Assembly: GCA_902771445.1 (NCBI GenBank)
Contig: CACXXD010000005.1
Span: 1 to 57,275 of the forward strand
Length of the DNA stretch: 57,275 nt
DNA from: an uncultured Prevotellaceae bacterium
GTDB lineage: Bacteria > Bacteroidota > Bacteroidia > Bacteroidales > Bacteroidaceae
Reading direction: 5' to 3'
A program made the translations under genes and the position numbers. Shown in pieces: positions 1 to 16,615 of the stretch. Position 1 is the stretch's first letter. Each line of letters starts with the position of its first letter. The notes beneath the pieces were generated by a model. It was not told the DNA's origin. It was given only the letters and a program-made list of their open reading frames with translations, and did no database searches.

Positions 1-30
1 CGCAAATTTGTGAGCGACTTTTCCTATTAT

Positions 31-555
31 TTAACGGGCAAAGTTATATTCAAGCCAGGTTGTGCCGTTGAATGCGTAAGTGGCTTTGCTGTTCCCCATT
101 GTCAGATGGTCGAAGGCTATGGTGATGGTATGGTTCTTCGAGTTGTCTATACTGACGACCTTGGCAGTTCCGCTAATATATGGCAGTTCGCCATCCAACA
201 TATAGTTATATCCATTGTTGTCGAGTGGAACCAGCGTTAATGCCATCTTTGAAAACTCATCACCAACTTTCGGCTGAGCACTACTCTTGAATTTAAACTG
301 ATAGAGCAACACGTCATCAGCATTGCCAACACGGTCAAGAACAGGTACGTAGAAAGTGCCTTTGCCATTTTTCCATTCGCCTTCCCAAGTAACCTCTCTA
401 CTCATGCGATAGTCAGTGCCATTGATGTTAATGACATCGCTAACGCCTCCAGGAGAGATCGTTTCTTCTTCGTCATTACCACCGCATGCGACGAAACTCA
501 TACATGTCATCAATAGCATAGCCATCATGACAAATACAGAATAGTTCTTTTTCAT
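31..555 (-). CDS. Hypothetical lipoprotein, 174 aa
   Basis: A secreted lipoprotein of unknown function. The N-terminus has a lysine pair, a hydrophobic stretch and a lipobox ending SFVAC, so Cys24 is the likely lipidated residue; an acidic run just after it (NDEEE) resembles the surface-export signal of Bacteroidota lipoproteins. The rest looks like a single beta-rich domain with no motif I recognise. It is complete and has its own promoter-like -7 box upstream (601-608). It lies downstream of the kinase gene on the same strand but is separated by about 100 bp. The lipoprotein call is firm; the function is unknown. Confidence 0.8.
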   Translation of the reverse strand: MKKNYSVFVMMAMLLMTCMSFVACGGNDEEETISPGGVSDVININGTDYRMSREVTWEGEWKNGKGTFYVPVLDRVGNADDVLLYQFKFKSSAQPKVGDEFSKMALTLVPLDNNGYNYMLDGELPYISGTAKVVSIDNSKNHTITIAFDHLTMGNSKATYAFNGTTWLEYNFAR

Positions 556-600
556 TTTGTTTTTCTAAATTTAAATGTTTAACAATACAATTAACAGGCG

Positions 601-608
601 CAAAGTTA
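601..608 (-). promoter_or_regulatory. -7 box (TAACTTTG) for the lipoprotein gene
   Basis: Read on the minus strand the site is TAACTTTG followed by C, matching the Bacteroidota primary-sigma -7 consensus TAnnTTTG. It lies about 45 bp before the lipoprotein start. No clean TTTG was found at -33. Confidence 0.5.
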
Positions 609-658
609 AACTCTTTCCTTCAGAAAACAATCATCCATTTCGTCCATTTGGCTGGCTA

Positions 659-1966
659 CTACTTACCATAGTCTTTCTTCTGGCTATCGTAATATTGATA
701 TTGCTTTCCGTTATATTCTGTATTTCCGTCGTTCCGCTCCATTTGGTAGTACAGGTTGTTGACGTAGTAAAGCCATGTCTCTGAACATTCCCAATAGAAT
801 GTGCGTCCCGATATGGTGTTCTTTTGCCGATAACGCTCCCACAACGGATGGTAGTGCTTCATAATAGCAGTGCGAAAGTTGTTACTAAGCTCTTCGTATC
901 GAGAAAAGCCAATCGTTTTGTAAGAACTATCGAGATAGGTGGCCAGCATCTTGTCAAATATAGGCTGTGCTATGGCTTGAAGTTCGCGACGTAAGGCGAG
1001 AGTATCTTCCTGTGGGAGAGGTGTTTCTTCTGCAAGAGAGGGCGAAGAGACGGGTGAGTTTGTTGATGGCTTGGGGGCTTCACGAGTGCTATCTTTAGAA
1101 ACTTCATGAGATGGAACAACAATTGCACTATCTTTTGTTACTATCGCTGTGTCGTTCTCCAGTTCGGCTTGTTCTCCATTGTCTGCAGAATGAGGAAGCA
1201 GAAATAGTAATGAAGTTGCAAGGGGAATGAGCAACAGCCACAACCAATAATAGCTATATTTTGGGGATAATGCTTGCTCCACCTCATCCACGTTCTGATA
1301 GCGGTCGGTAGAGAGTTTTGCCGTACACCGCCGTATCACCTTATTATAATAGTGGGCGCAGGGCAGTGTCTGCAAGATGCGGCCAATGGCATAGATGTCG
1401 GTGCGGGCATCGACCTTTGCCGACCCGTCGAGCTGTTCCGGGGCGGCATATTTGTCGGTGCGGCCCGTGGTGTCAGTGTAGCAGTCGGCATAGCAATAGC
1501 CTAAATCGACCAGTTTGACATCGTTGTCGACGCGGGTAATAAGTATGTTGGCAGGCTTCAGGTCGAGGTGGACTATCTGATGGCTGTGCAGATAGCCGAC
1601 AACGCTGAGCAGCTGACGAAGAAAACGGTCGGCATTCTTGCGGCTCTTGAAGTAGTCGGGATGATGCTCGGCAAACTGGTTGAGTGTTTCGCCGTCGACA
1701 TAGTCCATCAGGATGCCGTCGTCGGTCTTCGATATATAACGAACCAGATTTGTGTGGTCGAGCGAATAGCCTGTCTCAAACTCCTTTAGCAGGGCTGCCA
1801 CATATTGCGGATGGGTGCGCAGTTCGGGTTTCAGCCGTTTCAGAAAGTGCAGCTTGCCATGTAGCTTCACACGGTAACACTGACAAGTGGCACCACCTAC
1901 CGCCAGCAGTTCGGCATCAGGAAAAACAGACTGTTCCTCGGAAAACGACGAAGTACTGTCCACCAT
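659..1966 (-). CDS. Membrane serine/threonine protein kinase
   Basis: A Hanks-type Ser/Thr kinase of 435 residues. The kinase domain covers roughly residues 15-235: ATP-anchoring Lys43 (FLKRL), catalytic loop HLDLKPAN at 133-140 with Asp135 and Asn140, metal-binding DLG at 154-156, and an APE-like AAPEQ near 174. The usual HRD is HLD, so it lacks the arginine of RD kinases. One membrane segment lies at about 238-258 (WLWLLLIPLATSLLFLLP). A Ser/Thr/Pro-rich linker and an uncharacterised C-terminal region of about 110 residues would be periplasmic. It starts 3 bp after the 182-residue gene at 1970-2518, so the two are almost certainly cotranscribed. Substrates are unknown. Confidence 0.9.
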   Translation of the reverse strand: MVDSTSSFSEEQSVFPDAELLAVGGATCQCYRVKLHGKLHFLKRLKPELRTHPQYVAALLKEFETGYSLDHTNLVRYISKTDDGILMDYVDGETLNQFAEHHPDYFKSRKNADRFLRQLLSVVGYLHSHQIVHLDLKPANILITRVDNDVKLVDLGYCYADCYTDTTGRTDKYAAPEQLDGSAKVDARTDIYAIGRILQTLPCAHYYNKVIRRCTAKLSTDRYQNVDEVEQALSPKYSYYWLWLLLIPLATSLLFLLPHSADNGEQAELENDTAIVTKDSAIVVPSHEVSKDSTREAPKPSTNSPVSSPSLAEETPLPQEDTLALRRELQAIAQPIFDKMLATYLDSSYKTIGFSRYEELSNNFRTAIMKHYHPLWERYRQKNTISGRTFYWECSETWLYYVNNLYYQMERNDGNTEYNGKQYQYYDSQKKDYGK

Positions 1967-1969
1967 ACG

Positions 1970-2518
1970 TCAAAGCAAATCAAAGTCTATGCCTTGCGCC
2001 TTGCCTGCCGTAAAGGCACCAAGGTTCTGCCCGTCTCTGATTACCTCGGCAACAAGCAAGGGATAACCACGAACGATATGAGTCAGCGTGAGCAGGTCGC
2101 CCGCGATGAGTTTGCTGTTTTCACTCTCCATCACCTGAAAGCGATTGCCATCCAGATGCTTGATGGTCAAGCTGCGGTTGGGCGGATAGTAAATCACCAG
2201 CTGCTGGCCCGGCTCCAAGTAGCAGGCCAAGTATTCGTCGCGGTCGTCGAAAGACGAGTTGCTGCTGTTCTCGTCGACGAGCCGCAGGGCATCCCAATTT
2301 TCGTAGCCAAGATAGTGGGCAATGACATCGAGGGTCGAGGTGCGTGGCATGCGCTCATCGGCTATGAAGCCCAGCAACCGCTTCATGGTGTTGACTCCGA
2401 TGTGCTCGCCTGTTGCCGACTCAATGTCAAGGACCAGCAATTCGCAGTCGCGTGACAAACGAAGTTCGTTGCCCGACTTCTCGCTAAGTTTTTCTGTGAT
2501 AAAAGGTGAAAACTTCAT
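1970..2518 (-). CDS. Small protein with HTH-like N-terminal domain, kinase partner
   Basis: A 182-residue protein. Residues 1-80 contain a helical segment ending GVNTMKRLLGFI, then TSTLDVIAHYLGY and WDAL. I recall this module (about 80 residues, TlkRllGf...tLd.iA.ylGy..W) as common in Bacteroidota regulators, where it looks like a winged or XRE-like helix-turn-helix; DNA binding is inferred. Residues 95-182 look like a small beta-rich domain. It is first in a two-gene operon with the membrane kinase (3-bp gap), which suggests it is a substrate, anchor or regulator of that kinase. Confidence 0.65.
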   Translation of the reverse strand: MKFSPFITEKLSEKSGNELRLSRDCELLVLDIESATGEHIGVNTMKRLLGFIADERMPRTSTLDVIAHYLGYENWDALRLVDENSSNSSFDDRDEYLACYLEPGQQLVIYYPPNRSLTIKHLDGNRFQVMESENSKLIAGDLLTLTHIVRGYPLLVAEVIRDGQNLGAFTAGKAQGIDFDLL

Positions 2519-2576
2519 CTCGTAAATTCAACAAACAATACACAACGGAACTTTTCCCTAAGAACTATTCTTATTT

Positions 2577-2610
2577 AAAAATCAGCCGAAAGTCTGTCCT
2601 TTCGGCTGAT
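2577..2610 (-). terminator. Rho-independent terminator of guaA
   Basis: On the minus strand an 11-bp stem (TCAGCCGAAAG/CTTTCGGCTGA) with a 6-base loop is followed by a T run. It begins about 12 bp after the guaA stop. Confidence 0.85.
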
Positions 2611-2621
2611 TTGGTTGATTC

Positions 2622-4232
2622 CTACTCCCACTCGATTGTTGCAGGTGGCTTTGAGGAGATGTCGTAGCAGACGCGATTGACACCACGGACTTTGTTGATA
2701 ATCTCGTTAGATACTTTGGCCATGAAGTCGTAGGGCAGATGAGCCCAGTCGGCAGTCATGGCATCGGTAGAGGTTACTGCACGCAGAGCAACGGGATGCT
2801 CGTAGGTGCGCTCGTCGCCCATCACACCAACCGAACGTACAGTAGAAAGGAGAATAGCGCCAGCTTGCCATATTTGATCGTAGAGCGACACTTCGATTGT
2901 GCCGTCTTGCATGTCGGCAGGCACACCGGCGGCCAATACCTTGCGGGCTTCCTCGCCAGAGAGCTTCACTTTATATTCACGTAGTCCACGGATATAGATG
3001 TCGTCGGCCTCTTGCAAGATGTGAACCTTCTCAGGAGTGATGTCGCCCAGAATGCGTACAGCCAATCCTGGACCGGGGAATGGATGACGAGTGATGAGTT
3101 GCTCAGGCATACCCAGTTGGCGGCCTACACGACGCACCTCGTCTTTGAACAGCCATTTCAGTGGCTCGCACAGTTGCAGATGCATCTCTTTGGGCAGTCC
3201 ACCCACGTTGTGGTGGCTCTTGATGACTTTGCCAGTGATGTTGAGTGACTCAATGCGATCGGGATAAATCGTGCCTTGTGCAAGCCATTTGGCATCTGTG
3301 ATTTTTTTCGCTTCAGCATTGAACACTTCAACGAAATCACGTCCTATGATTTTACGTTTCTGTTCAGGATCGGTTATGCCTGCCAGATCGCCAAAGAACT
3401 TCTCTGAAGCATCTACGCCAATCACGTTCAGTCCCAATACCTTGTAGTCGTTCATGACCTGTGTAAACTCGTCTTTGCGGAGCATGCCGTGGTCGACGAA
3501 GATACAAGTGAGGCGGTCGCCAATGGCACGATTGAGCAATACAGCAGCTACGCTGGAGTCGACACCACCGGAGAGGCCGAGGATGACACGGTCATTGCCC
3601 AGCTGTAGTTTCAGTTCAGCTACAGTTGTGTCAACGAACGAGGCAGCACTCCATTCCTGTTTGCTACCGCAGATGTCTACAACAAAGTTCTTCAGCAGCT
3701 GTGTGCCTTGAACGGTGTGGAACACCTCTGGATGGAACTGTACGGCCCATACAGGTTGCTTGGTGCTGGCGAAAGCAGCGTTGACCACATCGGCAGTAGA
3801 GCCAATGACTTTGAAATCATCGGGAATGGCCGTGATGGTGTCGCCGTGGCTCATCCAAACCTGCGATCCCTTTTCGAACCCCTTGAACAGCTGGTCTTGT
3901 GTGTCGACCGTTTCCAGATGAGCGCGTCCATACTCGCGAGAGTCCGCTTTCTCAACTCGTCCGCCAAGCGTGTGCGAAATGAACTGAGCACCGTAGCAGA
4001 TGCCCAGTACAGGCAAACGACCGATGAATTGGCTGAGGTCAACTTTGAAAGCCTCTGGGTCGTGTACCGAATAGGGCGAACCGCTCAGAATGACACCAAT
4101 CACGCTGGGATCATCCTTTGGAAACTTGTTGTAAGGCAGAATCTCGCAGAAGGTGTCCAGTTCGCGCACCCGTCGGCCAATGAGCTGCGTGGTCTGCGAA
4201 CCGAAGTCAAGAATGATAATCTTCTGTTGCAT
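2622..4232 (-). CDS. guaA: GMP synthase (glutamine-hydrolysing)
   Basis: Converts XMP to GMP using glutamine and ATP, the last step of guanine nucleotide synthesis in the cytoplasm. The N-terminal class I amidotransferase domain (1-190) has the nucleophile Cys79 in LGICYGAQF and the His/Glu pair in QFHPEVFH. The ATP-pyrophosphatase domain has the P-loop LSGGVDSS near residue 220, and the dimerisation domain ends with the family tail PPATIEWE. The length of 536 residues is slightly above the usual 510-525. It is followed by its own terminator and preceded by the nucleotidyltransferase gene on the same strand. Confidence 0.97.
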
Positions 4233-4276: not shown

Positions 4277-5041
4277 TTACGTGTTCTTGTGGGGAAACAT
4301 TGTTTTCAGAAAGCCCTCAGCCTCTTCGAGTGTGTCCAGTTTTCCCACGTCCATCAACCGCAGGTCGTCTTGTTCCATGCCCATGAAGGCATATTGTTGG
4401 CAGAACTTTAGATAAAAATCTATAATGCCGAAACGATTGGGCATGTCGGCAAAGAGTGGGAATAAGCGTGGGGAGAGGACATGGATGCCGCTGAAGGCTA
4501 ATTTCCTTAATGAAGAACGAAGGGGAGCGAGTGAAGGATCCAGTCCCTTGATCTCGCCGGTCTCAACGTTTGTCCATCCCTGCATGCGCAGACTGTCATC
4601 GAAGAGCAGATAGCGTTTCGTCTTCCGTTGACTGACAAGCAGTAGTGCATCGGGGACGGTTGGCTGCAATAGCCGTTCATAAAGGTCGTTGAGGGGAGCG
4701 TTGCTCAGAATGTCGACATTGTGAATGAGGATGGGAGAATCAGAATCGAAGAGCGGAAGTGCATGCTTGATGCCGCCCCCCGTTTCGAGCAGTTCGTTCG
4801 TCTCGTCGCTGATACGGATGTCGAGGCCGAAGTTCTGATTAGCCTGTAGATAGTCGACAATCTGTTGAGCAAAATGATGAACGTTGATGACGATGCGCTC
4901 AAATCCGTTCTGCTTGAGCTTCATCAGTACATGCCACAAGAGAGGTTCGCCTGCAACAGGCACTAAAGCCTTTGGCATGCTGTCGGTCAGCGGCTTGAGC
5001 CTTGTTCCGAGCCCTGCGGCAAAAATCATGGCTTGCTTCAT
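4277..5041 (-). CDS. Sugar-1-phosphate nucleotidyltransferase, MurU-like
   Basis: A 254-residue nucleotidyltransferase (GlmU/RmlA N-terminal fold). It begins MKQAMIFAAGLGTRLKPLT, the G-x-G-T-R-x-x-P-L-T nucleotide-binding loop, followed by MPKALVPVAGEPL; these and the VINVHH segment closely resemble MurU, the MurNAc-1-phosphate uridylyltransferase of peptidoglycan recycling. An upstream ATG at 5116 is possible, but the start at 5041 is preferred: it begins the conserved fold and has a GAAGG Shine-Dalgarno 2 bp upstream. The preceding gene encodes an AmgK-like kinase, the known partner of MurU. Substrate is inferred; a mannose- or heptose-1-phosphate transferase is the alternative. Confidence 0.8.
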   Translation of the reverse strand: MKQAMIFAAGLGTRLKPLTDSMPKALVPVAGEPLLWHVLMKLKQNGFERIVINVHHFAQQIVDYLQANQNFGLDIRISDETNELLETGGGIKHALPLFDSDSPILIHNVDILSNAPLNDLYERLLQPTVPDALLLVSQRKTKRYLLFDDSLRMQGWTNVETGEIKGLDPSLAPLRSSLRKLAFSGIHVLSPRLFPLFADMPNRFGIIDFYLKFCQQYAFMGMEQDDLRLMDVGKLDTLEEAEGFLKTMFPHKNT

Positions 5042-5127
5042 GCCTTCAATGTTACTTTCGGATAAACAGCTTGTTGTAGAGGCAAACAAGGCGCTCGTCC
5101 CTACATTGCGCTGCAAAGTTACGAAAA

Positions 5128-6699
5128 TTATTTGTTATTGCCTAATATTTGCGTAATGTTCTGTTCTCGGTGACAAATATGTACCTCAACGCCGAACTTC
5201 TGATGGATATGTTCGGCCAAATGTTGGGCGCTATAGACGGAACGGTGCTGACCGCCGGTGCAGCCGAAGCAGAACATGAGGGAGGTGAAGCCGCGCTGCA
5301 GGTAGCGGGCTACGTGGGCATCGGCGAGCTTGTAGATGCTGTCGAGGAAGGTGATGATTTCGCCGTCGTCCTCGAGGAATCGGATGACGGGCTCGTCGAG
5401 TCCTGTCAGTTTCTTGTAGGGCTCGTAGCGCCCGGGGTTGTGGGTGCTGCGGCAGTCGAACACGTAGCCGCCGCCGTTGCCGCTCTCGTCTTCGGGTATG
5501 CCTTTGCGATAGCTGAAGCTGAACACCTTGACCACCAGCGGGCCTTTTCCGTCGTATTTTGAGAATGTGGCTGGGCCGTCCTTTGGGTGAGCCTTATAGG
5601 GGTTGTTGTCGGTGGTCTTGTAGCCGTCGGCGCGGCTCTGTGCCGTCACCTCAATCTGTCGGAACTGCGGCAATTCGGTCAGCTGTCTGAGCAGGTCGAC
5701 CAGATAGGGATAAGGAAATTCCGTTGTGCTGGCAGTGGTCAGTCCAATCAGTTCGCGTAGGTTCTGTATGGCTGGAGGAATCGACTCGATAAAGTGTCGC
5801 TTGCGCTCGAAATATCCACGGAAACCATAAGCACCGAGCACTTGCAGCGTGCGGAAGAGCACGAAGAGTCGCAGTCGCCGGTCGAACACATCGCGCTTGG
5901 GCATCTCTGTAAACTGCTGGGCTGCACGGTAGTACTCATCAATCAGTTCGCGGCGCAGCTTGTCGGGATACTTTGCCGATGCCTGCCACAGGAATGAAGC
6001 CAGATCGTAGTAGAACGGACCGCGTCGTCCTCCCTGAAAGTCGATGAAATAAGGCTTCTCAATGTCTTGGTCTTTGCTTCGGTTGAGCATCACATTGCGT
6101 GCCTGAAAGTCCCTGTACAGGAAACACTGCGTTTCGTCGTTGGCTGTCAGATCCTTGGCCAGCAGGCGGAAGTCGGCTTCGAGTTTCAGTTCATGGAAAT
6201 CGAGTTCCGTAGCCTTCAGAAAACAGTACTTGAAGTAGTTGAGGTCGAAGAGCACCCCTTCCACATCGAAGACGGGCTGCGGATAGCAGTTAGAGAAATC
6301 CAGTTCGCGGGCACCACGGAACTGCAGGTTGGGCAGTTCGCGTATCGTCCGTTTCAGCAACTCCTGTTCGGCTAGCGTGTATCGACCGCCTGCCTCGCGT
6401 CCGCCACGGATGGCCTCGAAGAGCGACACGGTGCCGAGGTCGGTCTGGAGATAGCGCAGTTCGTCGTTGCTGACGGCCAGTATGTGAGGCACGGGCAGTC
6501 GGCGCTTGGTGAAATGTCTGGCGAGATAGACAAAGGCATGGTTCTCGTCACGACTGGTTCCTACGCATCCTATAATGCTTTTCCCCTCGTTGTCGGTCAG
6601 TCGGTAGTAGGCACGGTTGCTGCCGGCTCCCGGCAGTTGTTCGGCATGCATCGGCTCGTGACCGCTCCATTCTTTATAGAGTTCTAATAGTTTTTCCAT
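5128..6699 (-). CDS. AmgK-like amino-sugar kinase fused to RapZ C-terminal domain
   Basis: A two-domain protein of 523 residues. Residues 1-330 form an aminoglycoside-phosphotransferase-fold kinase: nucleotide loop PGAGSNRAYYRL, catalytic loop YRDFQARNVM with Asp197, and metal site IDFQGGRRGP at 219-228, then YDLAS. These are features of AmgK, the anomeric MurNAc/GlcNAc kinase. Residues about 385-510 match the C-terminal domain of RapZ, including GCTGGQHRSV at 479-488 and a FSFSYRKGIP start. In E. coli that domain binds glucosamine-6-phosphate and the sRNA GlmZ. The N-terminal P-loop half of RapZ is absent. The downstream MurU-like gene supports a role in cell-wall sugar recycling. RNA binding here is speculation. 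Confidence 0.85.
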   Translation of the reverse strand: MEKLLELYKEWSGHEPMHAEQLPGAGSNRAYYRLTDNEGKSIIGCVGTSRDENHAFVYLARHFTKRRLPVPHILAVSNDELRYLQTDLGTVSLFEAIRGGREAGGRYTLAEQELLKRTIRELPNLQFRGARELDFSNCYPQPVFDVEGVLFDLNYFKYCFLKATELDFHELKLEADFRLLAKDLTANDETQCFLYRDFQARNVMLNRSKDQDIEKPYFIDFQGGRRGPFYYDLASFLWQASAKYPDKLRRELIDEYYRAAQQFTEMPKRDVFDRRLRLFVLFRTLQVLGAYGFRGYFERKRHFIESIPPAIQNLRELIGLTTASTTEFPYPYLVDLLRQLTELPQFRQIEVTAQSRADGYKTTDNNPYKAHPKDGPATFSKYDGKGPLVVKVFSFSYRKGIPEDESGNGGGYVFDCRSTHNPGRYEPYKKLTGLDEPVIRFLEDDGEIITFLDSIYKLADAHVARYLQRGFTSLMFCFGCTGGQHRSVYSAQHLAEHIHQKFGVEVHICHREQNITQILGNNK

Positions 6700-6719: not shown

Positions 6720-9665
6720 TTATTGCAAAGTGACGGCCATCAGACCGATGACCACGTCGTTGGAGAGTGTTCGCACGGTGATGCTCTTCAGCTTCTTCTT
6801 TTCGTTGAGAGGCATGCGCAGCATTTGGGCGGCTCCTCCTTCTATCTCGCGTCCATAGACACCCTTGATGTTGAGGGCTTTGCCGAGATCACGGCTTACG
6901 GTACCATTGCCGAGACAGACCCGATAGGGGCGGGGAGTGATGGTCTGGAATGCCTGTCCGTCAGCGAAATAGTCTTGTTCAATGGGACACCAGTTGTCGG
7001 GATTGCGCAGGCACAGCGTGTCGGTCGAGCCGTCACGATATGTGGCAACGATTAGTCCGTTGTCTATCCGGCTCTGCATGTGGTTGGTCGAGCCAGCCAG
7101 GAGCAGATAGGCCGATGATGCCTTGCCCTTCAGCGGGATTGTGATGCTGTCGGGATAGTTGTCCCACAGCGATGTGTAGACGATGTTTTGTCCTTCTTGT
7201 GGTGTGCGGAACGGTATGCCGGCTGCCACAAAACGGTTGCCTGTGGCCAGCGTGCGGAAAACAGATTCGTTGATGACTGGTGTGTATTGTGGATGGCACC
7301 ATTCGCCTACACCCTGCAACGGAATCTGCAACGTCGTCGTTGCCGGACGAGGTGAGCGATACTGATTCTTGAAAATGTCATCGACCTCGGCATTGAAATA
7401 TTTTGATAGGTCTTGCTGTGTGAACGGTTTAGTCAGGTCGGGTTCTTCCAAGCCCAGTCGTGCGGTCGTTCCCTCTGGCCGAATAGCTTCGTTGTCGTGG
7501 GCAGACATTGGATTGGTTCTTTGCACAGATGCCGCCTCAATAATCTGATGCTGCTCGTTTGTACCCTCAGTGTAGTGGAAACGCGCTCCATCGTGCTGTG
7601 CCAGGATGATGGTGAGCGGCTGGGCGAAGTGCTGTGTAATCTCATAGCGATCCTTTCCATCCTTACGCGTGTACATATATTCTATATAAGGTGTCCTCAC
7701 GCTCACGCTGTCCCAGCTATTGGGGAAGCCCGGCTGAAGGATGCAGCGCCCATCGAGTGCATCAGGTTGCACACCAAAGAGACCTTCGACAATCGCCCGA
7801 CTGGCTATGCCGATGCAGTCGCCAAAGTCGCGATAGCACTCGCCGCGTGCTGCATCGTAGTGAGACAGTTGTCCGAAGTTGGCAGGCGACTGTCCGTAGT
7901 ACATGTTGTCCATCACGGCCCCCATCAGCAGGTCGTAGCCCTCTTCGTACTGTCCGGCCTTGAAGCAGGCCAGAGCCATGTGCATCGTTTCGGCAGTAGC
8001 CACGTTGTTGATGCTCCAGGCGTAGGGCATCCAGTCGGACGTGGCGATGACGTGATAGGGCGAGTCCTCCACTTGGATGTGAGGCAAGTTTCGCTGCATG
8101 GCATTGATGGCCTGGTGCTGCATGAGGTCGTCGCCCAGTCCGCAGTCTATGGGTGTGTAATAGCTCCATGCGGCAGCACTCTCATGCACGCGCTTCAGTC
8201 CTAAGGCATCCTGATGCTCAGCCCAATGGTGCTTGTCGTTCAGCCAGAGCCGTTCTTTCATGGCTTGCGCTATGGCTTCGGCCTCATGGCGATAGGGTGT
8301 TGGGTCTTCGCCAATGATTTCAGCAATGCGTGCCGCAGTCTTGTTGTCAAAATAGTTATAGGCAGTAGCGTGGGTGACGGCTCCACCGCTATAATATAAT
8401 GCATCCGAGGCCCAGATGCAGCAGTAGGCATCGTACAGATGGTCGCCGTCAGGGTCGAAGTTGCGCTTCTCCCACTCCAGATGTCGCTTGATGACGGGCC
8501 ACATCTGGCGCATGTAGACCGTGTCGGCATTGTACATGAAGTGGCGCAGCAGTTCGTCCATGTAGTTCAGGTTCATGTCGTAGTGGTGCATCTGGTTGTT
8601 CTTCTCCGGATTGCGACAGATGTAGCCGTTTGAGTACATCTGCGTACCCCACTTCTTTTCGGCGCGAGCCATGTTCATGCCCGGGTCTTGCGTGGGGTGG
8701 GGGATGATGGGCTCCACCTGTGTCACCTGACTTTTTGCGTATGCATCGAAGTGAGCGTGCTGACGGTCGTTCCATCCGAGCACGTCGCCCACGTAGGCAG
8801 CCCGCCAGCCCGCCAGCGGCATGCGCCAGCCTATGCAGCCGTGCAGCCACGTCTGACCGTCCCAGTCGCCGTCGGCTGCCATCACGAGTGCGCTGCCCAG
8901 TGTGTTGACGTAAGGATCGGGGGTTGTGAACTGCACCCTCTGTCCCAGTGCTTGCCAGTGCTGAGCGGCTTCCTTGTAGAGCCGATGGGCTTCGGCAAAT
9001 GACACGTTTGCGACGGAATCGAGCATGACCGCCACGTAGGCCGTCGTCTTGCCGTCGTCCAAACTGATGGCACCGCTTGTCTTCAGTCCACGTTCTTGCG
9101 CGTCATGTTCGAACACACCGGGCGCATCGGCTCCAATATCGCCATTGCGCTTCAGTTTCGGATTGGCAATCTGGCAAACCTTCGTCTGCACGTTGAGCGG
9201 CATGGGGGCCAGACCATCGCTTACGAACTGCCAGACAGCTCCCTCCTGCTTGGGCATGGCCACGACACTCACGCGCAGTAGTCCCTCGCCCCAGCGACGA
9301 TCCTTCAGCATATATTCGCGCATTCCGTCGCGATAGACGGCCTTGCAATAGTCGGTAGAGTCAAGGGCAACGTTGTTGACTGTGAATCGGATGTTGCGGT
9401 GATGTCCTTTCTTGACGACGGCAAAGACGGGACGGTCACTCGTCTCTACGCGCCAGTCGGTGGGCGAGCCGTAGAGCGCTCTTGTGAAACGGTTGGTTCC
9501 GTTCTCGCAGACAAAGGCTCCCTGTTCGGGCCAGTATTGCTGTGTGCGTTGTTTGCCGCGCGTTTCTTCGTTATATGCTTGCAGTGCTCCGGCAATCTGC
9601 GGCTGTGCCATGCCGTGAAGGGCGAGGCCTGACAGTGCGAGGAGGCTCATAAAGAGTTTTTTCAT
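6720..9665 (-). CDS. Secreted DUF4450 family protein, putative glycoside hydrolase
   Basis: A secreted protein of 981 residues. The start at 9665 (MKKLFMSLLALSGLALHGMAQ) gives a clean signal peptide; the reading frame stays open 153 bp further upstream without one. I recognise it as a DUF4450 protein of Bacteroidota. The central region (about 280-700) is rich in helices with Trp/Tyr/His motifs such as WLHGCIGWRMPLAGWR and WPVIKRHLEWEKRNFDPDGD, typical of (alpha/alpha)6-toroid glycosidases. The last 200 residues look like a beta-sandwich. It is probably periplasmic and acts on a plant or host polysaccharide, but the substrate is unknown. It has no SusC/SusD neighbours. Confidence 0.75.
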   Translation of the reverse strand: MKKLFMSLLALSGLALHGMAQPQIAGALQAYNEETRGKQRTQQYWPEQGAFVCENGTNRFTRALYGSPTDWRVETSDRPVFAVVKKGHHRNIRFTVNNVALDSTDYCKAVYRDGMREYMLKDRRWGEGLLRVSVVAMPKQEGAVWQFVSDGLAPMPLNVQTKVCQIANPKLKRNGDIGADAPGVFEHDAQERGLKTSGAISLDDGKTTAYVAVMLDSVANVSFAEAHRLYKEAAQHWQALGQRVQFTTPDPYVNTLGSALVMAADGDWDGQTWLHGCIGWRMPLAGWRAAYVGDVLGWNDRQHAHFDAYAKSQVTQVEPIIPHPTQDPGMNMARAEKKWGTQMYSNGYICRNPEKNNQMHHYDMNLNYMDELLRHFMYNADTVYMRQMWPVIKRHLEWEKRNFDPDGDHLYDAYCCIWASDALYYSGGAVTHATAYNYFDNKTAARIAEIIGEDPTPYRHEAEAIAQAMKERLWLNDKHHWAEHQDALGLKRVHESAAAWSYYTPIDCGLGDDLMQHQAINAMQRNLPHIQVEDSPYHVIATSDWMPYAWSINNVATAETMHMALACFKAGQYEEGYDLLMGAVMDNMYYGQSPANFGQLSHYDAARGECYRDFGDCIGIASRAIVEGLFGVQPDALDGRCILQPGFPNSWDSVSVRTPYIEYMYTRKDGKDRYEITQHFAQPLTIILAQHDGARFHYTEGTNEQHQIIEAASVQRTNPMSAHDNEAIRPEGTTARLGLEEPDLTKPFTQQDLSKYFNAEVDDIFKNQYRSPRPATTTLQIPLQGVGEWCHPQYTPVINESVFRTLATGNRFVAAGIPFRTPQEGQNIVYTSLWDNYPDSITIPLKGKASSAYLLLAGSTNHMQSRIDNGLIVATYRDGSTDTLCLRNPDNWCPIEQDYFADGQAFQTITPRPYRVCLGNGTVSRDLGKALNIKGVYGREIEGGAAQMLRMPLNEKKKLKSITVRTLSNDVVIGLMAVTLQ

Positions 9666-9842
9666 GTTGCAATAGTTTTCCAGTTCGTTTTTTCCATTAG
9701 CTATGATTTGTTTCAGAGGCATGAGTTGTAGAAACTCTGAAAAACAGAAGTTCAGACGATAGTTTGGCTTGATAGAAAAAATGCGTTGCTGTCTATTGTC
9801 TGAACTCCTGATGCTCATTCACCCGTATTGTGTTGCGTATGG

Positions 9843-10547
9843 TTATTTCCTGACAGGACGGATGGGGAAGCCACCGTAGCGGTGCCATGAGTAGTTCCAG
9901 CTGATTTCGTCGTCCTCTATACTGAGGTAGTGGGCACCACCGCTGTAATAGGTGTCCAACGTGGCCGACCAGTATTTTCCGCCTTGCTTCTGACCGTTTA
10001 TCTCGCTGTCCCAGCGGGCGCCTGCCTCGGGGAAGAACACGTTCTCGCCGTTGGGTCCCGTAAAGAGTACGCCTTTCTTCTGGTTCAGGGTGATTCTCTG
10101 TTTGGTACACTCCTGTATGAGTTCCTTAAATTGTTCTTGTGTGGGCAAGCACCACTCGTCGCCCCATATCACGTAGGCCGCATCATATTTGGTCCCTGCA
10201 ATGTTGTTGCCCAAAAAGTGGCAGTTCATGGCATTGCCGTCGCAGTGCGAATAAGACACCCAGTCGTAGAGTCCTTTCTCTTCGAACTCGCCCCAGGCAA
10301 AATAAGAGCCGGCATCGGAGGGCTGTTCGGCGCCTATGTTGCAGGTAGCCCACATTGTGCCGCTGGGCATGCCCAAGTCCACCCATTCGTGAAACTCTTC
10401 CGTATCGATAGTCATTTCCTTTATCTCGCTGGAGTGAATCCTGACCTGTGTACCGTCATTTTTCTCAATTACTAAGACGTATTTCGTCTGTGCAAAGAGC
10501 GACAGACCAATCACCGTCATAAGCAAAAGTGACAATATTCTTTTCAT
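9843..10547 (-). CDS. Secreted protein with Fibrobacter/Bacteroidota major paralogous-type domain
   Basis: A 234-residue exported protein. The signal peptide MKRILSLLLMTVIGLSLFAQ is followed by a short strand-rich segment (YVLVIEKNDGTQVRIHSSEI) seen in many Bacteroidota surface proteins. A domain of about 175 residues starts EWVDLGMPSGTMWATCNIGA, includes YFAWGE, WCLPTQEQF and YWSAT, and ends IRPVR. This is the family sometimes called the Fibrobacter major paralogous domain (C-type-lectin-like fold by inference). It is usually found in secreted or surface proteins; no enzymatic activity is known to me. It stands alone, upstream of the DUF4450 gene on the same strand with a 177-bp gap. Confidence 0.75.
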   Translation of the reverse strand: MKRILSLLLMTVIGLSLFAQTKYVLVIEKNDGTQVRIHSSEIKEMTIDTEEFHEWVDLGMPSGTMWATCNIGAEQPSDAGSYFAWGEFEEKGLYDWVSYSHCDGNAMNCHFLGNNIAGTKYDAAYVIWGDEWCLPTQEQFKELIQECTKQRITLNQKKGVLFTGPNGENVFFPEAGARWDSEINGQKQGGKYWSATLDTYYSGGAHYLSIEDDEISWNYSWHRYGGFPIRPVRK

Positions 10548-10697
10548 TTTAAAACAATAAGAGAAACTGCAATGTTATTAATACGTCTGCAAAAGTAACT
10601 AAAAAAAATGACTTTACAGCATCTTGTCGAACGTTTTTCAATAATTTTTTTAGCTACAGCTTAGTCCTGTTATTTGCCGTTTGCTTTGTCTGACTTA

Positions 10698-10740
10698 GTA
10701 ACGGTAAAAAAAATGTCCCAATTTAATTTTTTACCGTTAC
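10698..10740. repeat. 14-bp perfect inverted repeat upstream of the uronate operon
   Basis: The arms GTAACGGTAAAAAA (10698-10711) and TTTTTTACCGTTAC (10727-10740) are perfect complements with a 15-base AT-rich loop. It ends about 15 bp before the -33 element of the operon promoter, so it could be a regulator-binding site or a hairpin end of the divergent upstream region. Confidence 0.7.
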
Positions 10741-10754
10741 TTTACAGCTATTTT

Positions 10755-10785
10755 TTTGCAAATCAACAGATTATTTGTATCTTTG
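10755..10785 (+). promoter_or_regulatory. Bacteroidota-type promoter of the uronate salvage operon
   Basis: TTTG at 10755-10758 and TATCTTTG at 10778-10785, with a 19-bp spacer, match the TTTG/TAnnTTTG consensus. The start codon of the first gene is about 30 bp downstream. Confidence 0.8.
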
Positions 10786-10815
10786 CAGTCATACAGAATT
10801 AATTTATATCTTTTT

Positions 10816-11958
10816 ATGTTCTCATATCATATCTATTCCCCTTATCGTGTGTGTCCGCTGGGTGCGCACGTAGACCATCAGCATGGTCTGGTGACAGGAT
10901 TCGCCATTGACAAGGGCGTCGACCTGTGGTTCAATGTAAGAGAGGACGGCGAGGTGAACCTGACGTCGCGTTCCTTCGAAGGTGAAGTTCACTTCCACGT
11001 AAACACCCCCTCGCAGGTGAAAGAGCATCACTGGGGCGACTATGCCCGTGGTGCCAAGTTTGCCCTGCGCAAGCGTTTCGAGCTGACCCACGGCATCGAG
11101 GGTGTCATCCAGGGCTCGCTGCCCGTTGGCGGTCTGTCGTCGAGTGCTGCCGTGCTCATTGCCTACGTCATGGCCTTTGCCAAGGCCAACGGCATCACCC
11201 TGCAGCCCTTCGAGGTGGTGCAGATTGCCTCAGAGGCTGAGCGCGAGTACATCGGCTTGAACAATGGTCTGCTGGATCAGGCTTGCATCGCTCTGGGAAA
11301 GAAAGACGGTCTGCTGTTCCTCGACTGTGACAGCAACGATTATCGCATCATCAAGCGCAATCCCGATATGCCTGAGTTCGAGATTGGCATCTTCTTTTCT
11401 GGACTGACCCGCTCGCTGGTGAACAGCGACTACAACCTGCGTGTGTTTGAGTGCAAGACAGCCGCATGGAACATGCTGGCCTATCTTGACCAGCCGCTCA
11501 AGGCGTTCGACAAGACCTTCCTTCGCGATATTCCGAAGGCCACGTTCGACAAGACACGCATCGCCATGCCGGCCCGCTTTGCCCGTCGTGCCGAGCATTT
11601 CTATTCCGAATATCGTCGGGTGCGTCAGGGCGTGACAGCCTGGGAGACGGGCAATCTGAAACTGTTCGGCAAGCTGTCGTTCGACTCCTGCGAAAGTTCC
11701 ATTCACAATTATGAGTGCGGTTCGCCTGAGCTGATTGCCATCTACGAGATCATGCGCAATCTGCCCGGTGTCTATGGTGGCCGATTCTCTGGTGCCGGCT
11801 TCAAGGGTGCTTGCATTGCGCTGGTGGATCCTGCCCACAAGGTGCAGATCGAGACCGTGCTGACCGAGCAGTATCTGAAGCAGTTCCCCGAATACGAGAA
11901 GACCTTCAAGGTGTTCTGGGTGAAGCCGGACGACGGTGCGAGATTCGTAGAAGACTGA
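10816..11958 (+). CDS. GHMP kinase, galacturonokinase-like
   Basis: A sugar kinase of 380 residues in the galactokinase family. The start at 10816 lies in the proper place after the promoter and begins at the conserved substrate loop. True galactokinases read GRVNLIGEHTDY there; this protein reads YRVCPLGAHVDHQHG, close to the plant galacturonokinase motif RICPLGAHIDHQGG. Other blocks also match what I recall of the plant enzyme: the ATP loop VGGLSSSAAV, GLNNGLLDQ, RRAEHFYSE and PGVYGGRFSGAGFKG. The expected reaction is galacturonate + ATP to galacturonate-1-phosphate. The next two genes encode a nucleotidyltransferase and a UDP-glucuronate epimerase, which fits. Galactokinase activity remains possible. 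Confidence 0.85.
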   Translation: MFSYHIYSPYRVCPLGAHVDHQHGLVTGFAIDKGVDLWFNVREDGEVNLTSRSFEGEVHFHVNTPSQVKEHHWGDYARGAKFALRKRFELTHGIEGVIQGSLPVGGLSSSAAVLIAYVMAFAKANGITLQPFEVVQIASEAEREYIGLNNGLLDQACIALGKKDGLLFLDCDSNDYRIIKRNPDMPEFEIGIFFSGLTRSLVNSDYNLRVFECKTAAWNMLAYLDQPLKAFDKTFLRDIPKATFDKTRIAMPARFARRAEHFYSEYRRVRQGVTAWETGNLKLFGKLSFDSCESSIHNYECGSPELIAIYEIMRNLPGVYGGRFSGAGFKGACIALVDPAHKVQIETVLTEQYLKQFPEYEKTFKVFWVKPDDGARFVED

Positions 11959-11986
11959 TTGTTGTTGGGACTAAAAGAACAGAGAC

Positions 11987-12721
11987 ATGAAAAATATTGT
12001 GATAGCCGCCGGCTATGCCACACGTCTGGGCGAGCTGACGAAGAACTTTCCCAAGCCATTGCTGAAGATTGGCGAGAACACCATCCTGGGACGCATGCTC
12101 GACGACATCGACCAGATTCCCGAGATCGACGAGCACGTCATTGTCACCAACCATAAGTTTGCGCCCATCTTCGAAGACTGGGCCAGTACGTCGTTCTATA
12201 CAAAGCCCATTACTATTATAGACGATGGCACCGAGACCAATGAGACGCGCCTGGGTGCCGTGTGCGACTTGCTGTTTGCGATGGACAAGCTCGACGTGAA
12301 CGACGACATGCTGGTGGTGGCTGCCGACAACCTGTTGTTCTTCTCGTTCAAGGAGTTTGTCGACTTTGCCAACGAGAAAGGTACCTCGTGCATCATGTGC
12401 CATCGCCAGGACGACGTAGAGAAGCTGCGCCGCACAGGTGTGGTGGAACTTGACGAAGACATGCGCGTGCTGGGCATGGAGGAAAAACCGCAGGAGCCGA
12501 AGAGCCACTGGGCCGTTCCTCCTTTTTATATATATAAGGCCAAGGATCTGGAACTGATTTGTCATTCGGTAGAGAACGGATGCGGCAAGGACGCACCGGG
12601 CAATCTGGCTCACTACATGGTCGACCATGTGGCGATGCATGCCTGGCCCATGTCAGCCGGACGTTTCGACATCGGCAGTCTGGACACTTATTACGAGGCA
12701 GTAGAGAAATTCGGAAAATAA
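11987..12721 (+). CDS. Sugar-1-phosphate nucleotidyltransferase
   Basis: A 244-residue nucleotidyltransferase of the RmlA/GlmU N-terminal type. It opens MKNIVIAAGYATRLGELT, a variant of the AAGxGTRL loop in which the usual second glycine-rich turn is Y-A-T-R, followed by FPKPLLKIGENTIL. VVAADNLLFF holds the metal-binding Asp, and the FDIGSLDTYYEA tail is typical of the family. It lies 28 bp after the GHMP kinase and 15 bp before the epimerase. In this context it most likely turns galacturonate-1-phosphate into UDP-galacturonate; the nucleotide and sugar are inferred from the neighbours, not from residues. Confidence 0.85.
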   Translation: MKNIVIAAGYATRLGELTKNFPKPLLKIGENTILGRMLDDIDQIPEIDEHVIVTNHKFAPIFEDWASTSFYTKPITIIDDGTETNETRLGAVCDLLFAMDKLDVNDDMLVVAADNLLFFSFKEFVDFANEKGTSCIMCHRQDDVEKLRRTGVVELDEDMRVLGMEEKPQEPKSHWAVPPFYIYKAKDLELICHSVENGCGKDAPGNLAHYMVDHVAMHAWPMSAGRFDIGSLDTYYEAVEKFGK

Positions 12722-12736
12722 AACACAATTGAAATT

Positions 12737-13813
12737 ATGCAGAAAATAGAATTAGACAATAAAGTGATTCTGGTGACCGGCTCAGCCGGATTCATCGGTT
12801 CCAATCTGGTGAAACGCCTGTTCCGCGACGTGAAGAATGCCACGATCGTAGGCATCGACAACATGAACGACTACTACGACGTGTCGCTGAAGGAGTTCCG
12901 GCTGAACGAATTGAAAGGACTGGTGCCTGAGGGCATCAAGTATGAGTTTGTGAAGGGCGACATTGCCGACAAAGCTACCATCGACGGCCTCTTTGCTCAG
13001 TACAAGCCCGCCGTGGTGGTGAACTTGGCCGCACAGGCTGGCGTGAGGTATTCGATCACGAATCCCGATGCCTACATCCAGTCAAACCTCATCGGCTTCT
13101 ACAACATCCTTGAGGCCTGCCGTCATTCCTACGACGGCGGTGAGCGTGGTGTGGAGCATCTGGTGTATGCCAGCTCGTCGAGTGTCTACGGCTCCAACAA
13201 GAAAGTGCCTTACTCAACCGACGACAAGGTGGACAACCCCGTGAGCCTCTATGCAGCCACGAAGAAGTCGAACGAGCTGCTGGCCCATGCCTATTCCAAG
13301 CTCTATAACATTCCCTCGACGGGTCTGCGCTTCTTCACGGTCTACGGGCCTGCCGGTCGTCCCGACATGGCCTACTTCGGATTCACCAATAAGCTGAGAA
13401 AGGGCGAGACCATCCAGATCTTCAACTTCGGACATTGCAAGCGCGACTTTACCTTCGTCGACGACATCGTGGAAGGTGTGGTACGCATCATGCAGGGTGC
13501 TCCTGAGAAGAAGAACGGCGAAGACGGACTGCCATTGCCGCCTTATGCCGTCTACAACATCGGCAACAACAGTCCTGAGAATCTGCTCGACTTTGTTGAC
13601 ATCCTGCAGCAGGAACTGATCCGGGCCAAGGTGCTGCCCGAAGACTACGACTTCGAGGCACACAAGAAGCTGGTGCCGATGCAGGCCGGCGACGTGCCTG
13701 TCACATACGCAGACACCAGTGCGCTGGAGCGCGATTTCGGCTATAAGCCGTCCACGCCGCTTCGCTCCGGCCTGCGTGCCTTTGCCGAGTGGTATGCATC
13801 TTTTTATAAATAA
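12737..13813 (+). CDS. UDP-glucuronate 4-epimerase
   Basis: An extended short-chain dehydrogenase/epimerase of 358 residues. The NAD site is TGSAGFIGSNL near residues 14-24; the catalytic triad lies in YASSSSVYG and SLYAATKKSNE (YxxxK). NMNDYYDVSLKE and FTVYGPAGRPDMA are typical of UDP-glucuronate 4-epimerases (the plant GAE and bacterial Cap1J group), which interconvert UDP-GlcA and UDP-GalA. It is the third gene of the operon and would link salvaged galacturonate to UDP-glucuronate for surface polysaccharide synthesis. Confidence 0.92.
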   Translation: MQKIELDNKVILVTGSAGFIGSNLVKRLFRDVKNATIVGIDNMNDYYDVSLKEFRLNELKGLVPEGIKYEFVKGDIADKATIDGLFAQYKPAVVVNLAAQAGVRYSITNPDAYIQSNLIGFYNILEACRHSYDGGERGVEHLVYASSSSVYGSNKKVPYSTDDKVDNPVSLYAATKKSNELLAHAYSKLYNIPSTGLRFFTVYGPAGRPDMAYFGFTNKLRKGETIQIFNFGHCKRDFTFVDDIVEGVVRIMQGAPEKKNGEDGLPLPPYAVYNIGNNSPENLLDFVDILQQELIRAKVLPEDYDFEAHKKLVPMQAGDVPVTYADTSALERDFGYKPSTPLRSGLRAFAEWYASFYK

Positions 13814-13842
13814 ATATGGTTATCAACTAAAATCTATGAGCT

Positions 13843-15339
13843 ATGATGGAGTTTGATCAAATGTACATTTGGATTGCCGCAGGCATCATTCTGTTGGCTG
13901 TGTTCCTTTTCATCTCCTACGTCAAGGCACCGCCCTCGTTTGCTTTTATCATCTCCGGTCTTTCCAAGGAGCCGCGTGTGCTCATTGGCTCAGGCGGATT
14001 CCGCATACCTTTCTTTGAGCGACTCGACCGCGTCTATCTGGGACAGATCACGGTTGACATCAAGACGGAAGAGAGCGTTCCCACCAACGATTTCATCAAC
14101 GTCGATGTGGATGCCGTGGCCAAGATCAGGGTGACCCCCAACTCCGACGGTACGCGTCTGGCTGCCAAGAACTTCCTGAACATGACGCCTGAGGAGATTG
14201 CCGCTCAGTTGCAGGACTCGCTGCAGGGTAACATGCGCGAGATTATCGGTACGCTCGACTTGCGCTCGCTCAACACCGATCGCGACGGCTTCTCCGACCA
14301 GGTGATGATGAAGGCGCAGCCCGACATGGCCAAGCTGGGCATTGAGATCATTTCGTGCAACATTCAGAACGTGACCGACCGCGAGGGGCTCATCAAGGAC
14401 TTGGGTGCCGACAACACGGCGAAGATCAAGAAGGATGCTGCCATCAACCGGGCCGTGGCTGAGCGCGACGTGAAGATCGAGGTGAGCAAGGCCGACAAGG
14501 AGAGCAATGATGCCCGCGTGGATGCCGACACGGCCATTGCTATCAAGAACAACGAGCTGGCGCTGCGACGTGCTGCGCTGAAGAAGGAGGCCGACACGGC
14601 GCAGGCCGATGCCGATGCCGCATACGCCATTCAGCAGCAGGAACAGCAGAAGACCATCAACATCAAGACCGTTGAGGCTGAGATTGAGAAGACCAAGCGC
14701 GAGCAGATTCTGTCGAAGGAGCAGATTGAAATCAAGATGAACCAACTGGCCGCAGAGGTGGAGAAGAAAGCCGATGCCGACAAGTACAAGGTGGAGATTG
14801 ATGCTGCTGCCGATCTGGAACAGCGCAAGCGCGTGGCCGAGGCGCAGAAGTATGAGGCTGAGCAGCGAGCACTGGCACAGAATGCCGAGTCGGATGCCAC
14901 TCGCTATCGTCTGGAGCAGGAGGCTGCGGGTATCAAGGCCAAGGGCGAGGCCGAGGCATACGCTATTCAGAAAAAGGGTGAGGCTGAGGCTCTGGCAATG
15001 GACAAGAAGGCCGAGGCCTACAAGAAGTACAACAATGCTGCCGTGATTCAGATGATGATCGAGGTGCTGCCGCAGGTGGTGGAGAACGTGGCCAAGCCCA
15101 TCTCCAGCATCAAGGATGTCAACATCTACAGTGGCGACGGCAATGGCATCTCTGCCATGTCGGGCAATGTGCCAGTAGCCATCAAGCAGGCCTTCGACGT
15201 GTTGAAGTCAGCAACGGGGGTCGACATGGCCGACATCATGCGTGCTGGAACCATTGAGGCCAAGACCACTCGCAACATCAACCTGAATGACGATGCTGCC
15301 GATGCTGTGAACAACATGATTGGAAAGGGCGACAAGTAA
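13843..15339 (+). CDS. Flotillin-like SPFH-domain protein
   Basis: A 498-residue flotillin/YqiK-type protein. One N-terminal membrane segment (about 7-26) is followed by an SPFH/band-7 domain (30-200). A long Ala/Glu/Lys-rich coiled coil (about 200-390, with repeats such as KGEAEAYAIQKKGEAEALA) and a flotillin C-terminal region follow. Such proteins form oligomeric scaffolds in membrane microdomains. It lies 29 bp downstream of the epimerase and may be read through from that operon. No NfeD-family partner, which often accompanies bacterial flotillins, is visible next to it. Confidence 0.92.
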   Translation: MMEFDQMYIWIAAGIILLAVFLFISYVKAPPSFAFIISGLSKEPRVLIGSGGFRIPFFERLDRVYLGQITVDIKTEESVPTNDFINVDVDAVAKIRVTPNSDGTRLAAKNFLNMTPEEIAAQLQDSLQGNMREIIGTLDLRSLNTDRDGFSDQVMMKAQPDMAKLGIEIISCNIQNVTDREGLIKDLGADNTAKIKKDAAINRAVAERDVKIEVSKADKESNDARVDADTAIAIKNNELALRRAALKKEADTAQADADAAYAIQQQEQQKTINIKTVEAEIEKTKREQILSKEQIEIKMNQLAAEVEKKADADKYKVEIDAAADLEQRKRVAEAQKYEAEQRALAQNAESDATRYRLEQEAAGIKAKGEAEAYAIQKKGEAEALAMDKKAEAYKKYNNAAVIQMMIEVLPQVVENVAKPISSIKDVNIYSGDGNGISAMSGNVPVAIKQAFDVLKSATGVDMADIMRAGTIEAKTTRNINLNDDAADAVNNMIGKGDK

Positions 15340-15364
15340 GTCGCTTGGCTCAGTTAGAGACAGG

Positions 15365-15434
15365 AAATCTTCAAAAATCTTACGCAAATAGTGCGAATGC
15401 CTATAATTGTCGTAAGGTTTTTGAAGATTTTTTA
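15365..15434 (+). terminator. Terminator after the flotillin-like gene
   Basis: Arms of 20 bases at 15365-15384 and 15411-15430 pair with one mismatch, and a T run follows the right arm. The region sits between the convergent flotillin and GT4 genes and may serve both strands. Confidence 0.75.
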
Positions 15435-15499
15435 ATTCATTCTAAATCTAAAATGGAGATGATTTATGAAATAATTTTGATGGTTGGTATATAAAGATC

Positions 15500-16615
15500 T
15501 TACGCTATTTCGTGATAGAGGCTGAGCAGTTGTTCGGCGGTGCGCTGCCATGAGAAGAGACGGGCACGCTGCAGTCCCACCTCGCGCTTCTGCTGATAGA
15601 AAGTTGGGTCGTTTTCCAGTCGGATGAGCATGTCGGCTATCTCGTCGGCCTGTTCGGGATTGACGAGGATGGCATCTGGACCGCCAATCTCAGGCATCGA
15701 CGACGTGTTGCTGGTGATGACGGGCGTGCCGCAGGCCATGCCTTCGAGCAGGGGAATGCCGAAGCTCTCGCGCAGCGAGGTGTAGAGAAAACAGAAGGCA
15801 TCGTTGTAGATGCCGGGAAGGTCGCTGTTGGGAATGTAGCCAGGCATGTGCAGGTGCTCGCGGATGTGCTCGATGTGGTTGCGGCTGATGATGCTGTCGA
15901 GATACTGGCGGTCGAGATCGGCCATGAGCAACGGGCGCTTCACGGCAGAGCGCTCCAAGTAGCGGGCATAGGCAATGAGCGTGCGCTCGGTGTTCTTCTT
16001 CGGATCGGTATTGCCGAGGAAGAAGATGTAGCCCTTCTGAGGAATATATTTCTTGTAGACGTCGTGTGTGTCATTGAGCACGCGGAACCATTCGTTGTAG
16101 CCGTTGTAGATCATGGCCATGCGTTCCTCGGGGATGTGCAGCTTGCTCACGATGTTGCGTAGCTCAAACTGCGACACGGTGATGATGCGGCGGCAGTGGG
16201 GCAGGATGCGCGGCACGACGAGCCGTCGGTAGAGCCATCCCATGTTCTGGTAGAGCGACTTGTTGGCCTTGTCGCGTGGCTCAAGGAAGATGATGTCGTG
16301 GAGGGTGAGCACGAGCGGTATGTTGCAGTGTATGGGGGCGGTGTTGCTGGTGCAGTGTAGCAGTTGCACACCGGCCTTCTTGGCGGCCCGTGGCAGCGCC
16401 CACTGTTCCCAGAGAGGGTAGGAGGGTGTGGTGAGCTCCACGATGTGCACGTTGGCCGACTCGCTCACGCAGCGGTCGGGGCCGGGCTTCACGAACACGA
16501 AATACTCGTTCTCATGGTCTATCTGCTGCAACTGCAGAATCTCCTGCAGCACCACGTAGTCCATGCCGTGCTTGTTGGCGCGGAAGATGCGCTGTGCTTC
16601 AATGCCTATCTTCAT
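15500..16615 (-). CDS. Glycosyltransferase family 4
   Basis: A 371-residue GT-B-fold glycosyltransferase. The N-terminal acceptor domain begins MKIGIEAQRIFRANKHGMDY and contains HDIIFLEP. The C-terminal donor domain has GNTDPKKN, then SLRESFGIPLLEGMACGTPV, whose E-x(7)-E pattern marks GT4 retaining enzymes, and ends with helix SWQRTAEQLLSLY. It should transfer a nucleotide-activated sugar during surface polysaccharide synthesis; donor and acceptor are unknown. It follows the P-loop/CYTH gene by 6 bp on the same strand, so the two are cotranscribed. Confidence 0.9.
   Translation of the reverse strand: MKIGIEAQRIFRANKHGMDYVVLQEILQLQQIDHENEYFVFVKPGPDRCVSESANVHIVELTTPSYPLWEQWALPRAAKKAGVQLLHCTSNTAPIHCNIPLVLTLHDIIFLEPRDKANKSLYQNMGWLYRRLVVPRILPHCRRIITVSQFELRNIVSKLHIPEERMAMIYNGYNEWFRVLNDTHDVYKKYIPQKGYIFFLGNTDPKKNTERTLIAYARYLERSAVKRPLLMADLDRQYLDSIISRNHIEHIREHLHMPGYIPNSDLPGIYNDAFCFLYTSLRESFGIPLLEGMACGTPVITSNTSSMPEIGGPDAILVNPEQADEIADMLIRLENDPTFYQQKREVGLQRARLFSWQRTAEQLLSLYHEIA

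Follow-up and report, generated by a model that had tools for sequence, protein, structure and literature searches.

In plants, galacturonate, the chief sugar of pectin, is salvaged by galacturonokinase (GalAK, At3g10700), a UDP-sugar pyrophosphorylase and a UDP-GlcA 4-epimerase (GAE), as outlined in the accessible part of PMC8636097. Bacteroides FKP, a fucokinase/GDP-fucose pyrophosphorylase that salvages fucose for capsule and glycoproteins, likewise joins a GHMP kinase to a nucleotidyltransferase in Bacteroidota and makes a precursor of surface polymers from a sugar of the diet or the host (available sections of PMC8931616). The zebrafish glucuronokinase/putative UDP-GlcA pyrophosphorylase also pairs a uronate-1-kinase with a short bacterial-type nucleotidyltransferase, but it is a fused animal protein, acts on glucuronate and has a kinase of another subfamily (available sections of PMC3938481).

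Here we analyzed a three-gene locus in a 57,275-nucleotide stretch of DNA from an uncultured Prevotellaceae bacterium, a Prevotella-like organism of gut or rumen (contig CACXXD010000005.1, hereafter the window), for which an initial annotation had proposed galacturonate salvage to UDP-GalA and UDP-GlcA. The logic of this cluster is also that of the anomeric kinase-uridylyltransferase pair AmgK/MurU, which differs in having an APH-fold kinase and in serving peptidoglycan amino sugars. The chemistry predicted for the locus is the same as in plants. Its kinase has the plant sugar loop and is about 40% identical over its length to the plant enzyme (a presumed sequence), although the plant insert after the loop is missing. 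The nucleotidyltransferase, a 244-aa protein of RmlA/GalU fold, appears to differ from the plant pyrophosphorylase, and the genes stand together in an operon, unlike those of plants. The route itself is known from plants; a bacterial operon with a different nucleotidyltransferase family is the predicted variant. We found no bacterial galacturonokinase in the accessible parts of the open-access literature, a body from which most subscription papers are missing, and within that scope the earlier remark that a bacterial version is not well described agrees with it.

Results

Three plus-strand open frames, for a kinase, a nucleotidyltransferase and an SDR-family epimerase, lie in a row with an operon-like layout (Table 1), as the initial annotation had stated when it bounded the locus from the promoter through the epimerase stop. 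The intergenic gaps are 28 bases between the kinase and nucleotidyltransferase genes and 15 bases between the nucleotidyltransferase and SDR genes. Counted from an in-frame TTG at 10756, the kinase frame would encode 400 aa.

Table 1. Predicted features of the locus, in window positions.
Feature	Position	Strand	Remarks
Bacteroidota-type promoter TTTG-N19-TATCTTTG	10755-10785	+	pattern match, 30 bases ahead of kinase ATG
GHMP sugar-1-kinase, predicted galacturonokinase	10816-11958	+	ATG at 10816, 380 aa
Sugar-1-phosphate nucleotidyltransferase, predicted UTP:GalA-1-P uridylyltransferase	11987-12721	+	244 aa
SDR-family epimerase, predicted UDP-GlcA/UDP-GalA 4-epimerase	12737-13813	+	358 aa

Bacteroidota promoters follow a consensus other than sigma-70. 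The consensus promoter claimed earlier for the operon was recovered as the pattern in Table 1, which has 9 matches in the whole window against 0.83 expected from shuffles. A sigma-70 promoter was not above chance, as a scan of 9000-16000 gave 3 sites against 4.8 expected. For comparison with related loci we used the best 80 of 569 confirmed in a named-genome collection; all of them are 80-91% identical and therefore not independent. In 19 of these best 80 of 569 loci the promoter pattern precedes the kinase gene by no more than 259 bases (0.2 expected from mononucleotide shuffles); the other 61 do not show it there. A flotillin gene (13843-15339) begins 29 bases after the epimerase gene; it was rejected as a fourth cluster gene, since none of the best 80 of 569 loci has flotillin with the cluster.

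Elsewhere in the window, the minus strand at 4280-6699 carries a MurU-like nucleotidyltransferase gene (NF045761, 129.7 bits, cut-off 250) beside that of an APH-type kinase, weakly similar to AmgK, to which a RapZ C-terminal domain (PF22740, 3e-31) is fused. These two may form another anomeric kinase-uridylyltransferase pair, one serving amino sugars of the cell wall. A 1032-aa protein whose only match is DUF4450 is encoded at 6723-9818, also on the minus strand, and its gene is adjoined by that of a weak-match FISUMP/Lcl-like protein at 9846-10547.

The kinase has the fold of GalK, and the Pfam galactokinase galactose-binding signature scores above its cut-off (27.9 vs 23.1). Five curated NCBIfam galactokinase models matched it, all below cut-off (best 196.9 of 226.65 bits). 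Residues 10-24 form the motif YRVCPLGAHVDHQHG, the plant galacturonokinase-type sugar loop that had been pointed out before, in which Ala replaces the Glu of the GalK loop GxNLIGEHTDY. This Ala is found in 81 of 81 kinases (the window kinase and the best 80 of 569), where A17, Y206 and A327 are all invariant. They correspond to A41, Y250 and A368 of Arabidopsis galacturonokinase (AtGalAK), residues that reportedly matter in that enzyme (Yang 2009). AtGalAK is represented in our tree and alignment by a presumed sequence of the enzyme.

The initial annotation had suggested a tree to see whether the kinase lies inside the GalK clade, a position that would have refuted its reading. In the tree, 20 GalAK-like rows (including the presumed Arabidopsis sequence) split from 12 GalKs with support of 100/100, and the window kinase, outside the GalKs, grouped with the plant GalAK, a presumed sequence on a long branch (2.15). 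It is 40% identical to AtGalAK (presumed sequence, 397 columns) vs 27% to the GalK of its own genome, a separate protein with GRINLIGEHTDY. Judged by its sequence, the kinase is not a galactokinase, and its class is well supported; we infer that it would phosphorylate D-galacturonate at C1 with ATP. The window kinase keeps Tyr206, whereas 8 of 16 aligned family kinases have Phe at this position; a Tyr-to-Phe change at the equivalent Y250 of AtGalAK is said to admit GlcA.

The nucleotidyltransferase has the NTP_transferase fold of the small RmlA/GalU type, and its nearest solved sequences are glucose-1-phosphate thymidylyltransferases. RmlA and GalU score close together in structure comparison (25.9 and 27.6), so that its base and sugar are not fixed. 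A plant-type UDP-sugar pyrophosphorylase was not among the 50 structural and 27 sequence matches listed. We infer that the enzyme would accept GalA-1-phosphate and UTP.

The third gene, claimed to encode a UDP-glucuronate 4-epimerase, belongs to the SDR epimerase family (Pfam Epimerase, 3.5e-53); the best solved match of its product, PDB 5u4q, is named a dTDP-glucose 4,6-dehydratase (1.9e-104). No NCBIfam model scored above cut-off for this protein, which is unlike GalE (25% identical to that of E. coli). Weaker solved matches include WbgU (1.4e-36), 6zl6 (1.1e-35), presumably the B. cereus UDP-GlcA 4-epimerase, and MoeE5; a UDP-GalNAc epimerase scores like a characterised UDP-GlcA epimerase against the SDR. 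The title of a reference in PMC7984243 calls MoeE5 a UDP-glucuronate 4-epimerase, and for the B. cereus epimerase that paper gives an equilibrium ratio near 2 of UDP-GalA and UDP-GlcA. The UDP-GlcA 4-epimerase reading leans on the neighbour genes; by its family, the SDR would interconvert UDP-GalA and UDP-GlcA at C4.

Co-occurrence was scored in a family sample of 151 genomes. The kinase (cut-off E <= 1e-60) was found in 43 genomes, the nucleotidyltransferase (1e-50) in 45 and the epimerase (1e-100) in 55. Every one of the 43 genomes with the kinase has the nucleotidyltransferase too, and 2 genomes have the nucleotidyltransferase alone (Fisher 9e-36). The epimerase is present in 34 of the 43 vs 21 of the 108 others (1.1e-11) and was not found at 1e-100 in 9 kinase genomes. 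Kinase and nucleotidyltransferase genes lie within 1 kb of each other in 35 of the 43 genomes, 2 kb apart in 1, 25 kb apart in 2 and on other contigs in 5; one 25-kb pair (genome G050) has a nucleotidyltransferase match with two internal stops. By identity to the window kinase, the 43 genomes comprise 15 at 69-100%, 7 at 53-56% and 21 at 42-45%.

Among the best 80 of 569 loci, 74 have the nucleotidyltransferase, 68 the epimerase and 67 all three genes within 7 kb; several of the 13 loci without the full set are near a contig end. The 67 complete loci (from the best 80 of 569) show at least six arrangements: kinase-nucleotidyltransferase-epimerase in 45, kinase-epimerase-nucleotidyltransferase in 7, nucleotidyltransferase-kinase-epimerase in 5, divergent in 4 and four rarer ones in 6. 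Of 19 further regions, 17 have the nucleotidyltransferase close to the kinase. The coupling of the kinase gene to its partners is well supported, and co-occurrence together with clustering supports a single kinase-nucleotidyltransferase-epimerase pathway for UDP-uronates. As a separate observation, two epimerase copies flank a nucleotidyltransferase-kinase pair (identities to the window 88% and 76%) at positions 1-3727 of locus L182.

A GalAK-like kinase was found in 9 of 393 genomes of an order-level sample, under five family codes (the window's own family counted), and in 1 of 395 genomes of a phylum sample, namely the window's own; the cluster is therefore patchy. All three genes lie within 1.5 kb in 6 of the 8 order-level loci besides the window, and such clusters occur again in other Bacteroidales families. 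Of 11 phylum-level matches at 1e-60, 10 were apparent kinases from other families; these have the GEH loop and were set aside as GalKs.

The genome that holds the window (88% complete, 223 contigs) encodes the catabolic galacturonate enzyme UxaC (1.2e-195) and a TuaD-type UDP-glucose 6-dehydrogenase, which give the cell the means to burn galacturonate as well and to make UDP-GlcA de novo. As had been claimed, the salvage route bypasses UDP-glucose dehydrogenase, but the cell has the TuaD-type enzyme, and salvage would therefore supplement other supply, not replace it; when pectin is eaten it would save the oxidation step. In the 151 genomes, the strong PF03721 class (E <= 1e-60) occurs in 6 of the 43 kinase genomes vs 54 of the 108 others (p 3.7e-5, uncorrected for kinship). 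We rejected replacement of UDP-glucose dehydrogenase by the kinase route, because this class comprises the TuaD type only (L136 checked) and all 14 other genomes with a kinase at least 69% identical carry an E. coli/Klebsiella-type enzyme (by N-termini; L149 checked). A swap of dehydrogenase type is seen among the 151 genomes, TuaD being rarer with the kinase and the E. coli type going with it.

An E. coli-type UDP-glucose dehydrogenase gene lies beside the cluster in 6 of the best 80 of 569 loci, in 2 of the 19 further regions and in L180, which points to UDP-uronates. At least one polysaccharide-type neighbour is present in 31 of the best 80 of 569 loci, a raw count without a background rate. 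In a plasmid collection, 1 of 72,556 records matched at 1e-40, a Lactococcus garvieae plasmid (L158, CP066001.1) with an epimerase-kinase-nucleotidyltransferase-dehydrogenase row at 6829-11123 inside a polysaccharide cluster. Its kinase, annotated as two short hypothetical proteins, is 41% identical to that of the window, and the nucleotidyltransferase stretch, which has no annotation, 53%. The SDR is 81% identical and adjoins the row's UDP-glucose dehydrogenase (77%); such high identity across phyla suggests that the SDR may have moved horizontally between them.

Eight loci form a distant clade of kinases at 43-45% identity, in which the kinase gene always adjoins that of the nucleotidyltransferase. 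A true GalE (55% identical to that of E. coli) is encoded upstream in 4 of the 8, with arabinofuranosidase-like proteins in 3 of those, and a GSCFA protein in 5 of the 8. The GalE and arabinofuranosidase-like neighbours belong to one genus code; Phe at the Tyr206 position was seen in L116-L123 and in alignment rows L024-L030, L012 and L015. This Phe and these neighbours suggest another substrate, and the clade may be a version of the cluster that uses it.

Discussion

We put at about two in three the probability that the locus is a bacterial galacturonate (uronate) salvage operon, running from GalA over GalA-1-P to UDP-GalA and reversibly to UDP-GlcA, for polysaccharide. The three-gene operon, constitutive or sugar-independent, would salvage free hexuronate. 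The GHMP kinase would use ATP to phosphorylate D-galacturonate at C1, the nucleotidyltransferase would convert GalA-1-P and UTP to UDP-GalA and pyrophosphate, and the SDR would interconvert UDP-GalA and UDP-GlcA at C4. Both products would enter polysaccharide synthesis, and the route would run parallel to UDP-glucose dehydrogenase and to catabolism through UxaC.

The main rival is glucuronate salvage, in which the kinase would prefer D-glucuronate, the nucleotidyltransferase would yield UDP-GlcA and the epimerase UDP-GalA. The epimerase would make GalA and GlcA entry equivalent downstream, and UDP-glucose dehydrogenase, whose product is UDP-GlcA, recurs as a neighbour. Half of the 16 aligned kinases have Phe at the Tyr206 position, a change said to open AtGalAK to GlcA, yet the window kinase and all 80 loci (the best 80 of 569) keep Tyr. 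In zebrafish a GlcA kinase and a nucleotidyltransferase of bacterial type form one fused protein, but the same source reports that the sequence of animal and plant glucuronokinase differs greatly from that of GalAK (PMC3938481). On balance we consider glucuronate salvage unlikely.

The breadth of the nucleotidyltransferase and epimerase families leaves room for a kinase that acts on another sugar, such as L-arabinose or a modified galactose, in a cluster making another UDP- or dTDP-sugar. The GalE genes beside 4 of the 8 kinase pairs of the 43-45% clade, 3 of them with arabinofuranosidase-like neighbours, fit such a sugar, but this arrangement is seen in the distant clade, whereas clusters of the window type repeatedly include UDP-glucose dehydrogenase and an SDR unlike GalE (25%), and for the window we find it quite improbable. 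An ordinary galactokinase paralogue would account for the fold and the Pfam signature. Against it stand the position outside the GalK clade (100/100), scores below every NCBIfam galactokinase cut-off matched, the Glu-to-Ala change in the sugar loop of 81 of 81 kinases (window and best 80 of 569), a normal GalK already in the genome and neighbours that are uronate genes; we regard a paralogue as very improbable.

Galacturonate salvage, the reading we prefer, would give bacteria a path from pectin to UDP-uronates, one that present models label as galactokinase or leave without a name, and would parallel fucose salvage by FKP. It would also offer a small soluble enzyme set for UDP-GalA production; one study found a suitable GalA kinase wanting, the plant enzyme being unstable in its authors' hands (accessible part of PMC7984243). 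More tentatively, and with somewhat less than even odds, the locus may represent a bacterial pectin-sugar salvage operon that is patchy in Bacteroidales families and has reached Firmicutes capsule plasmids, with dietary galacturonate going straight into surface polysaccharide and with two or more substrate versions that a Tyr/Phe change at one sugar-contact residue separates. If salvage takes place as predicted, diet could influence the cell surface of bacteria that are abundant in rumen and gut.
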